DNA from: Limnoraphis robusta CS-951
Lineage (GTDB): Bacteria; Cyanobacteriota; Cyanobacteriia; Cyanobacteriales; Microcoleaceae
Reading direction: 5' to 3'
DNA length: 10,043 bases
Assembly (NCBI RefSeq): GCF_000972705.2
Contig: NZ_LATL02000211.1
Coordinates: 1-10,043, forward strand
Shown here one piece after another: positions 5,311-6,968 of this stretch (position 1 is its first letter; each line of letters starts with the position of its first letter). The notes beneath the pieces were generated by a model that was not told the DNA's origin, did no database searches, and saw only the letters and a list, made by a program, of their open reading frames with translations. A program made the position numbers and the translations under genes.

Positions 5311-6039
5311 TTAATCTTGAGTTTTCTTTTGAGTCGGAACCACCAAAATCCTATAAGCCTCTTGAGCCGCTGCTTGTTCAGCCGCCTTGATCGAACGTCC
5401 GCGACCTTCACCCACAGATTGACCTTGAAACCAAACTTTAGCCGTGAACCGTTGATCATCGCCCATCGGCCCGCTTTCTTCTACGGTATATTCGGGTAAA
5501 ACTTTATAATAACTTTGCGTCCACTCTTGCAGTGCAGCCTTGTAGTTTTGACGAGCCGGATCGCGTAAAATCTGAGTCGCTCCCTTTTGGAAGTGAGGTT
5601 CTAGCCAGGGACGGATCAGTTGTAAATTTTGGGTACTCAAGTACAAAGCCGCCAGTATCGCTTCCAAACAGTCCGCTAAACGTGACTGGTTCCCCATGCG
5701 ATCTTGCGCCGCACTCCCGCCAATTAACAAATATCGACCCATGCCATAACTTTCGGCAATTTCTGCCAAAAACCGATCACTGACCAACACCGAGCGAATG
5801 GCGCTAAACTCTCCAACAGGTTGATTGGGATAAGTTTCCCACAAAAATTCGGAAGCCGCCAGTCGCACAACAGCATCTCCCACAAATTCTAACTGCTCAT
5901 AGTTAGCTTCCGTTGAAATCGAAGGATGCGTTAGGGCCAGATCTAACAAATGCCACTTAATGGCGTCTTGTTCCGACAGTCCCAAACGTTCAACCAGCTT
6001 CTGCAACTGACGTTGGCGGTTTGGATAGCCGATTTTCAT
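5311..6039 (-). CDS. rnc: Ribonuclease III
   Basis: This double-strand-specific endoribonuclease matures rRNA precursors and cuts structured mRNAs and small RNAs. It has 242 residues, a normal length. The catalytic domain carries the family signature NYEQLEFVGDAV, with the metal-binding acidic residues Glu48, Glu51 and Asp55, and the second pair Asp123 and Glu126 in LADCLEAILAALY. A C-terminal double-stranded RNA binding domain runs from about NYKAALQEW (164) to the AAEQAAAQEA helix near residue 225. A strong ribosome binding site GAGGTGAG ends about 7 bases before the ATG. A TATAAC (6075-6080, minus strand) could be its -10 box. The matching -35 position falls on the junction of the inserted element upstream, so that insertion may have rebuilt this promoter. 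It is followed by the oxidoreductase gene after 36 bp. Confidence 0.97.
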   Translation of the reverse strand: MKIGYPNRQRQLQKLVERLGLSEQDAIKWHLLDLALTHPSISTEANYEQLEFVGDAVVRLAASEFLWETYPNQPVGEFSAIRSVLVSDRFLAEIAESYGMGRYLLIGGSAAQDRMGNQSRLADCLEAILAALYLSTQNLQLIRPWLEPHFQKGATQILRDPARQNYKAALQEWTQSYYKVLPEYTVEESGPMGDDQRFTAKVWFQGQSVGEGRGRSIKAAEQAAAQEAYRILVVPTQKKTQD

Positions 6040-6076
6040 TGGGTTCTCACCTCTCTAACCTGCTGGAGACTCCCGT

Positions 6077-6082
6077 TATAAT
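6077..6082 (+). promoter_or_regulatory. TATAAT pointing into the HEARO-like element
   Basis: A perfect TATAAT on the plus strand lies 20 bp before the element. A start about 7 bases downstream (near 6089) would give a transcript whose first 12 or so bases are flanking DNA followed by the element, the order expected for a HEARO/IscB-type RNA with a 5' guide. No good -35 hexamer is visible, and the same bases form a TATAAC on the other strand for rnc. Confidence 0.25.
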
Positions 6083-6101
6083 CTTTTTGATTTAACGGTG
6101 A

Positions 6102-6505
6102 GAGGAAAGCAGGGCAGGGCGTACTGCTTCCTTACTAATTTTGAGAACCCCTACCGCCTTGGATGTACTAACGACATTCGACGTTTTGCATTCGCCTTTC
6201 GCCTGGACAGTTACAGGCTTGTGCGTTCTACCTGTACGCATAGGGGTTGTTTTTCGGCTTAACGCCTCTCCCTTTCGGGGTAAAGTGAGCTTCGCCAATG
6301 TTAGAGGTCGGTACTTTCCAATCAGCACTACCACTGACCCGACGCGACTGTTTAACTGCTTGGTTCTAGAGCGGGGGACTAGCTACGCATCCCCCGGTAG
6401 GAACTTTAACACTTACCTCTAACGTAGTGCGCTAGACACTTAGGCTGGTCAACTTGGGCTTTTTAAAGCCCCCGTTAGAGTCCTAGAACTTAACGGCGGG
6501 TTGTT
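6102..6505 (+). ncRNA. Structured non-coding element, HEARO-like (solo IscB omega-RNA candidate)
   Basis: This region, between rnc and rnpB, has no believable protein but unusual self-complementarity. It begins right after GTGA (6098-6101). A first hairpin pairs 6104-6112 with 6124-6131 (8 bp, one bulge). A perfect 8-bp helix joins AACCCCTA (6146-6153) to TAGGGGTT (6241-6248). An 11-pair helix with one wobble joins 6298-6308 to 6415-6425 and encloses a long arm: GTTCTA (6363-6368) with 6398-6404, then CGGGGGA (6372-6378) with TCCCCCG (6390-6396). Two more hairpins close the 3' side, GGGCTT/AAGCCC (6456-6471) and CCCGTTA (6471-6477) with 6491-6500. HEARO RNAs are known to insert after ATGA or GTGA (from memory), are common in cyanobacteria and are the omega-RNA of IscB. 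No IscB gene is here. The strand follows the GTGA flank. The identity is inference; an IS200/IS605-derived miniature element is the main alternative. The right end is uncertain by tens of bases. Confidence 0.5.
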
Positions 6506-6511
6506 GACAGG

Positions 6512-6527
6512 TTCGGAGCAATCCGAA
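6512..6527. other. 6-bp hairpin with GCAA tetraloop at the rnpB 3' flank
   Basis: TTCGGA, GCAA, TCCGAA form a perfect stem with a GNRA-type loop when read on the plus strand. It lies between the HEARO-like element and the 3' end of rnpB. It is not a normal terminator for either direction: a run of A follows it on the plus strand, and the T-run precedes it on the minus strand. It may be the outermost hairpin of the inserted element or part of the rnpB trailer. Confidence 0.35.
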
Positions 6528-6529
6528 AA

Positions 6530-6968
6530 AGAGAGAGTCAGACATAAGCCGGGTTCTGTTCTTTCAACTGCTAGCAGTCAAAAGGGCAGTTATCTATCTG
6601 GGATGTTTGTTACCAAACACCTCTAGCGGTGCCACCTCAACCGGAACCGGGAAAAGACCAACCGTAGTTCCTCCGACCTTGCTCCCACCTGGGGTTTACC
6701 GAGCCAACGCCTCACGACGTTGCTGGTGCGCTCTTACCGCACCTTTGCACCCTTACCCTTTCAGTGATCAGTAAACAGTTATCAGTTCTCAGTTATTCAC
6801 TGTCTCCTGTCCCCTCTCTCCTGTTGACTGAAAAGGCGGTATCTTTCTGTGGCACTATCCTCACGATCGCTCGCACTGGGCGTTACCCAGCAGATTTAGT
6901 CTTTTGGGAGCCCGGACTTTCCTCAGACTCGGGTATTGAGTCCGCAACTGCCTTCGCTGACTCTCTCT
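6530..6968 (-). ncRNA. rnpB: RNase P RNA, bacterial type A, cyanobacterial form
   Basis: This is the catalytic RNA of ribonuclease P, which removes the 5' leader of pre-tRNA. The ends are fixed by the terminal P1 helix: AGAGAGAGTCAG at the 5' end (6968-6957 read on the minus strand) pairs over 12 bp with CTGACTCTCTCT at the 3' end. Conserved blocks occur in order on the minus strand: GAGGAAAGTCCGGGCTCCC (6924-6906), GGTAAGAGCGCACC (6738-6725), a P-loop region with GGTAAACCCCAGGTGGGAGC (6700-6681), and CAGAACCCGGCTTATG (6558-6543). The length of about 439 nt is normal once the enlarged P12 arm is counted. A T-run just after P1 may define the 3' end. A TACTAT at 6974-6979 (minus) is a weak -10 candidate. 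It is co-oriented with rnc. Confidence 0.97.
6757..6836 (-). repeat. Repeat-filled P12 arm of RNase P RNA
   Basis: CCTTTCAGT (6757-6765) pairs with ACTGAAAAGG (6827-6836), one bulge, forming the P12 stem. The ~61-nt loop between them is made of short repetitive units: CAGT-containing steps (cagttatcagttctcagttatt) and CCTGT steps (ctcctgtcccctctctcctgt). Repeat-derived P12 extensions (STRR sequences) are known from some cyanobacterial rnpB genes. The same CCCTGTCCCCTGTT motif recurs in the short gap at 9214-9228. Confidence 0.75.

Follow-up and report, generated by a model that had tools for sequence, protein, structure and literature searches.

Organization of the rnpB–rnc locus

The stretch analysed here (the window) comprises 10,043 nucleotides of contig NZ_LATL02000211.1 from Limnoraphis robusta CS-951. 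Two host genes on its minus strand, rnpB for the class A RNase P RNA (6530–6964; RF00010, 257.4 bits) and, downstream in the sense direction, rnc for RNase III (5311–6039; identified from its sequence and the Pfam Ribonuclease_3 and dsrm domains), are separated by 490 bp. Within this interval lies an element of 458 bp (6051–6508), delimited by its register with copies in other genomes and by the empty site at L001, a locus of another species. Everything belonging to it is read from the minus strand. In sense order, host DNA at the end of rnpB forms a predicted 16-nt guide, GGATTGCTCCGAACCT (6509–6524), directly 5' of position 1 of the HEARO model; it is followed by a HEARO or IscB-type omega-RNA scaffold (6280–6508), a group II intron-like RNA domain that we call R1 (6138–6252), a terminal hairpin region (6060–6112; stem 6073–6078/6093–6098) whose sequence is common to other elements, and GTGA (6047–6050), the putative TAM or target motif, with which the downstream host flank begins. 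The rnc ATG is 11 nt beyond the element end.

A sequence-only reading of this DNA had proposed a standalone HEARO-like RNA in a region with no credible protein. The only ORFs of at least 60 aa there are of 80 and 93 aa, no IscB was found within the window and rnc comes directly after the element, as that reading implied. In an autonomous IscB element the IscB gene lies directly 3' of the RNA; here the interval holds no ORF above 93 aa. No promoter-like site was found for the element.

The insert carries a complete omega-RNA

A search with the Rfam HEARO covariance model (RF02033) matched 6280–6508 on the minus strand at 144.4 bits (gathering score 83; E 5.7e-31). The match spans the complete model, positions 1–211, with 12 positions of the alignment marked as non-standard pairs. 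The window RNA is a HEARO, or IscB-type omega-RNA. The proposed identity was correct, and the strand, which the sequence-only reading had left unfixed, proves to be minus.

The omega-RNA stretch folds better than its shuffled versions (z −2.39), 4 of 200 shuffles being equally good. The pairings proposed for it were largely accurate: the inner arm of 4+2+7 bp at 6363–6404 is exact, and between 6298–6308 and 6415–6425 ten of the 11 pairs claimed are Watson–Crick pairs, the eleventh being a C/A mismatch (6424/6299). When 24 HEARO RNAs were aligned, 13 of the 24 pairs in the two omega-RNA helices had changed on both sides, and 80.9% of cells could pair, compared with 30–45% when the partner strand was slid. 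On two of five measures, the number of double-change pairs and the further pair types, these helices did not rise above shuffles, the observed value being reached by 87 and 424 of 500 shuffles.

Of 98 genomes, comprising G001 and relatives selected by search, 63 had HEARO RNAs above the cut-off, often in many copies, as had been anticipated for cyanobacteria. HEARO RNAs favour a boundary at ATGA or GTGA. The window RNA resembles them in its full-length match, in the RTGA at its boundary and in being multi-copy in cyanobacteria; it differs in that no IscB lies at the locus and R1 stands behind the RNA. The insert is almost certainly a solo HEARO element.

R1 is related to a segment of group II introns

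The 8-bp pairing of 6146–6153 with 6241–6248 is an exact complement, as the sequence-only reading had stated, and that reading had nested it with the other helices in one RNA. This second part did not stand, since the helix closes R1, a separate, intron-related domain. A search of the 98 genomes with the whole element showed that its tail part, sense ~265–360, recurs without the omega-RNA and matches loci in which domain V of a group II intron lies on the same strand. In these intron loci domain V lies 61–107 nt 3' of the R1 model end. R1 stands 5' of an Rfam-identified domain V at L094 and L095 (Crinalium plasmids), L153, L154 and L158, and at L155 together with a local duplication. The same arrangement was seen at L225 (G008) and L226 (G094), in genomes without a HEARO match, and the domain therefore exists in introns on its own. 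At L225, L226 and L233, domain V was located by regular expression instead of Rfam, and at L226 the pattern matched on both sides of R1.

The R1 covariance model was built from the window sequence together with eight relatives; the window, itself a member of this training set, scored 109.3 bits. The alignment of these nine sequences kept double changes in 16 of 22 pairs, so that covariation, which the sequence-only reading had made a test of its helices, is found in the 8-bp-helix domain as well as in the omega-RNA. Among 29 copies from omega-RNA settings, 98.3% of cells were paired and double changes again affected 16 of 22 pairs; none of 500 shuffles was as high on any measure, and slid helices gave 28–47%.

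Judged by sequence similarity, R1 has its homologue in the group II introns of cyanobacteria, in a segment 5' of domain V. It would be a candidate for domain III, a segment between domain I and domain V, the domain being judged by position alone. Rfam includes families for group II D1–D4, none of which matched, at E up to 0.1, any of six loci that included five intron loci. Domain V itself (RF00029) had no match in 6040–6560 at E up to 1, and its absence rules out a functional group II intron at the locus. There was likewise no sign of an IscB coding remnant in the tail, which matches intron loci instead. A tree of R1 (~110 columns, many supports low, the row L155:1644–1760 from the local duplication left out) put the window, L156 and L157 with the intron copies; the R1 domains of omega-RNA elements are therefore not shown to be one lineage.

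Several other arrangements of R1 were noticed. At L181 and L233 (G097) it follows domain V, unlike in other introns, and at L181 it falls within what Rfam aligns as an expanded domain VI. R1-like sequence without a domain V or HEARO pattern nearby was present at L227, L228 (G094), L232 (G031) and L240 (G056).

Ends of the element and its target site

The sequence-only reading had suggested comparison with a related strain lacking the element. Such a strain is Lyngbya aestuarii BL J (L001), the one rnc relative found among GTDB contigs (90% aa identity), in which rnpB and rnc are uninterrupted neighbours 43 bp apart and HEARO is absent; a HEARO search of its whole genome also gave no match. At the point homologous to the window GTGA junction L001 has ATGA: it reads CTCCGAACTA followed by ATGATA, while the window reads CTCCGAACCT, the element and then GTGAGA. 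The motif lies 22 nt from the rnc ATG in L001 and 11 nt in the window. The comparison and these distances therefore put RTGA on the rnc side, that is, in sense 3' of the target. The empty site comes from another species with diverged flanks, so that the alignment places the join at homologous, not identical, bases; an empty site in a close relative would join ...CCGAACCT to GTGAGAACCC.

In a set of 20 rnc loci (L034–L053, the first being BL J again), rnpB was beside rnc in 15, and none of these 15 had a HEARO between the two genes; L053 has one on the far side of rnc. With 15 of 20 loci showing it, a co-oriented pair in which rnpB immediately precedes rnc is conserved in these cyanobacteria.

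The element had been proposed to start at 6098, with GTGA at 6098–6101 as its left flank. Neither claim could be upheld, since that GTGA lies inside the element, within CTCTCACCG, which is common to L092, and copies elsewhere place the end at 6051. A boundary at 6098–6101 is ruled out by this conserved stretch, which covers it. L092 has a window-like start and terminal motif, with an equal 12-nt spacing from GGGAGTCTCCAG to its ATGA; because of this equal spacing the window element is taken to run from 6508 to 6051, with the motif at 6050–6047. At the opposite end, 18 copies in G010 and 12 in G003 follow unique flank and open with the GTCA that begins the model. In G010 the 13 solo copies stop directly before GTGA; in G003 those solo copies with an end readable by eye stop before GTGA or ATGA. 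Among the 18 G010 copies examined, 13 (L064, L065, L069–L078 and L080) have a different, R1-free tail of near-identical sequence that ends at GTGA.

The same 3' ending plan was found in IscB elements (L005, L023, L030, L002 and L020) and IsrB elements (L218, L219 and L222). In the whole-element search of the 98 genomes, the terminal hairpin (sense ~397–449) also recurred without the omega-RNA. The terminal motif is 84% identical over 51 bp in the IscB-bearing element L140, whose IscB is 60% identical over 422 residues to the plasmid IscB of L032, and the hairpin is common to TnpB-type elements (L132–L139; 85–91% over ~51 bp). By eye, the ORFs of L137 resemble a broken TnpB, and L132–L139 border ATGG, not RTGA.

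Non-autonomous IS200/IS605 elements of the PATE or MITE kind are known. Like them, the window element has a terminal hairpin, a one-sided flank motif and ends common to nuclease-bearing elements; the difference is that it carries two structured RNAs. A Y1 TnpA encoded elsewhere would have moved it by recognising the terminal hairpins, and we consider mobility in trans likely. The fuller description, a non-autonomous, RNA-only relative of IscB transposons with IS200/IS605-like ends and an RNA served in trans, is probably correct.

R1 occupies the place of the nuclease gene

R1 was found in at least 44 of the 98 genomes, a lower bound, since the search scored up to 37 candidates per genome with strict filters. 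Context was analysed for the best R1 match of each of 30 genomes, ranked by score (L153–L182). In 22 of the 30, R1 follows a full HEARO on the same strand, the gap being 13–43 nt overall and 20–28 nt in 20 of the 22. In three others the preceding RNA is a HEARO that is truncated (L157, by eye) or interrupted by an intron end (L167), or is of the IsrB type (L159), so that R1 stands behind an IscB- or IsrB-type omega-RNA in 25 of these 30 matches. The other five (L153, L154, L155, L158 and L181) are in or beside group II introns. No IscB homology was found within the flanks of any of the 30 loci by tblastn with one IscB as query (that of L032), a search blind to IsrB, whose absence beside R1 was read from ORF lists alone. 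At L167 (1–230; G058:C136), on the edge of a contig, a group II intron has inserted into an omega-RNA gene, and its domains V and VI, which form the intron end, run straight into the 3' half of the HEARO.

Inspection by eye of the individual genomes gave the same order. R1 stands behind a HEARO end in all 16 contexts of G044 and in 10 of 14 contexts of G036, where the other four are behind an IsrB-type RNA; these contexts overlap the 30 loci (L199 is L159 and L183 is L162). Viewed from the HEARO side, 62 loci reduced to 60 distinct ones (L004/L064 and L007/L082 are duplicates), with flanks of mostly 1000–1500 bases and contigs that end early at L015 and L024, the latter cutting off R1. Twenty of the 60 had IscB homology, four had R1, none had both and 36 had neither. 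R1 is therefore not needed for a solo element.

The IsrB-type RNA is a second omega-RNA-like RNA of about 230 nt that begins like HEARO. A 311-nt query matched 18 of the 98 genomes, and the RNA proper is present in 14, the match being to host flank alone in G044, G053 and G055 and to the first 37 nt alone in G040. In 12 loci (L213–L224; G036, G033, G011, G047, G049, G050, G056, G058, G054, G052, G042 and G045), the RNA is followed by an IsrB-like protein in seven (L218–L224) and by R1 in five (L213–L217), the latter having the appearance of solo IsrB-type elements. The frame behind the RNA begins MFVPVV...PLMP and is ~344 aa long where complete. The L218 protein matched the IsrB of PDB 8dmb over residues 3–334 (E 7.9e-35) and scored 94.6 bits against the IscB profile, below the cut-off of 175; the other six were judged IsrB-like by their similar N-termini.

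R1-bearing and nuclease-bearing elements have alike 3' ends. We conclude that R1 stands where autonomous elements have their nuclease gene, and that it does so in two families. In the mechanism we propose, R1 would replace the nuclease ORF as a structured 3' partner and would shield the omega-RNA from degradation and from downstream mRNA, although this specific role as a protective partner is unlikely. Opinion is evenly balanced on the wider proposal that the IscB and IsrB transposons of cyanobacteria gave rise to RNA-only 'satellite' elements in which the same intron-derived module replaced the nuclease and was selected as RNA. If true, a captured ribozyme domain would be the standard component with which a guide RNA persists in the absence of its nuclease gene, and two great families of RNA-based mobile elements would meet here.

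The element might instead be a dead relic: the nuclease gene of a HEARO element would have been deleted, and what is left would be drifting as spacer between rnpB and rnc. The locus does lack a nuclease, and 40 of the 60 distinct HEARO loci lack IscB homology, so that, among the loci examined, solo copies are more numerous than those with IscB. PMC8400943 names HEARO RNAs with the regulated non-coding RNAs of Limnospira indica, its authors setting them aside as remnants. Against this, the omega-RNA is complete over 211 model positions and R1 is complete as well, and compensatory changes accompany the recurring R1 form in many genomes, a pattern that drift would not maintain. We regard a relic as improbable, if less so than the alternatives below, and favour a mobile element with an intron-related module.

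Junctions with start codons

At the window junction the element end (GAGAG) and the host GTGA together form a Shine–Dalgarno-like GAGAGGTGA, 7 nt before the rnc ATG. Start codons are frequent at such junctions. RTGA opened at least 60 codons at 18 of 21 R1-element junctions from 21 genomes, as compared with 64 of 293 ATGA sites elsewhere in the same loci. This set comprised 22 loci, L165 being without a junction; the L161 junction was taken too far downstream, and its true ATGA is also open. For G044 and G036 the figures were 20 of 27 junctions and 44 of 196 ATGA sites elsewhere in the same loci, from 30 loci of which L184, L186 and L200 were without a junction; the motif of L210 is ATGG. Two loci are in both sets, and like insertions across genomes (L171/L175, L179/L180 and L191/L207) are non-independent. 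Two misses of the second set (L187 and L195) look by eye like very small proteins. R1 elements (L159–L182 and L183–L212) abut host genes at their ATGA start codons; by eye these genes include trigger factor-like ones in G044 (L191) and G036 (L207) and, at L168, a tRNA synthetase-like gene.

These observations bear on the possibility that the element was exapted as the rnc 5' UTR, or as an rnpB processing signal, and contributes the Shine–Dalgarno sequence GAGAG plus GTGA. The ribosome-binding-like junction and the abutment of R1-bearing elements on start codons elsewhere would agree with it. However, selection against insertions within genes could produce the start-codon pattern, and the insertion is not conserved, HEARO being absent from between the genes in all 15 rnpB–rnc pairs. 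Exaptation as a leader is thus distinctly improbable, and we retain the solo mobile element as the preferred reading.

A predicted guide and proposed action in trans

In the IscB layout the flanking sequence on the 5' side of the scaffold serves as the guide. The guide predicted here, GGATTGCTCCGAACCT, with a 16-nt length that we take over from IscB, overlaps the hairpin just after rnpB (TTCGGA-TTGC-TCCGAA). It belongs in the precursor to this 6-bp hairpin and may pair with itself. In other copies the flank at the guide position is unique sequence. The homologous 16 nt of L001 have five differences from the predicted guide and are followed by ATGATA; elsewhere in the window there was no guide-like site with up to five mismatches followed by RTGA.

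IscB above the NCBIfam cut-off was found in 59 of the 98 genomes, which makes partners in trans plausible. The tally at E ≤0.001 (98 of 98) is uninformative, as this threshold is also passed by nine of 14 control genomes; none of the 14 is above the cut-off. The nearest genome, G001, has no HEARO, and its best match to the IscB profile (E 1.7e-15) is far below that of a full-length IscB. Among the elements examined, the closest relative with a nuclease is the G018 element in L142. HEARO-like matches were present in six plasmid records. Searches for the element in phages and for rnc in viral contigs found none.

Altae-Tran and colleagues reportedly carried out the original work on standalone trans-acting omega-RNAs with IscB. 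According to PMC9581776, standalone omega-RNAs function with IscB; NTGA serves as TAM for one IsrB, while others, including two from cyanobacteria, have NTG. In our scheme, read-through from rnpB would make the transcript, the hairpin after rnpB becoming the guide; IscB (or IsrB) made elsewhere would bind the element RNA and cut element-free rnpB–rnc alleles carrying GGATTGCTCCGAACCT followed by GTGA; and repair from the filled allele would keep or spread the element among chromosome copies. The predicted guide adjoins rnpB, so that cutting would fall beside an essential gene. The chances that the window RNA works as a guide in trans are about equal to those that it does not.

Relation to known elements

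According to PMC9581776, the solo omega-RNA is of a known kind, sharing with the standalone trans-acting omega-RNAs the lack of an adjacent nuclease; the window element, known from its sequence, adds defined transposon-like ends and an intron-like module. With IsrB omega-RNA systems (PDB 8dmb and PMC9581776) it has in common an NTGA TAM, and its relatives also include solo forms with R1, whereas the window RNA itself is of the IscB/HEARO type. The intron-like module is new with respect to the open literature, where an intron-derived domain in HEARO, IscB or IsrB elements was not found in sources including PMC9755519, PMC8400943 and PMC9581776; subscription papers could describe one.

The element shares with group II introns a homologous segment, 5' of domain V in the introns, and differs in having neither domain V nor a maturase; it is not an intron. 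Group I IStrons are known chimeric elements. An IStron-like chimera able to splice, in which the tail would be the remains of a group II intron entered by HEARO, or the reverse, would account for the intron-related R1 and has a parallel in the domains V and VI inside the HEARO of L167, but it is very improbable given the missing domain V in 6040–6560, the HEARO–R1 order in 22 of 30 loci and the presence of R1 behind IsrB-type RNAs, which a single accident does not explain.

Within OMEGA systems, solo guide RNAs are poorly understood and could be satellites that borrow a nuclease. The form defined here occurs in many genomes. Its ends are fixed, it obeys an RTGA rule, a natural empty site exists and an intron-related module replaces the nuclease gene, so that the action of solo omega-RNAs in trans and the role of the extra domain become directly testable.

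Two further repeats were noted in the window, an 81-bp unit in two tandem copies that are 96% alike (27–189) and, inside rnpB, five copies of the heptamer TCAGTTA (6761–6796).
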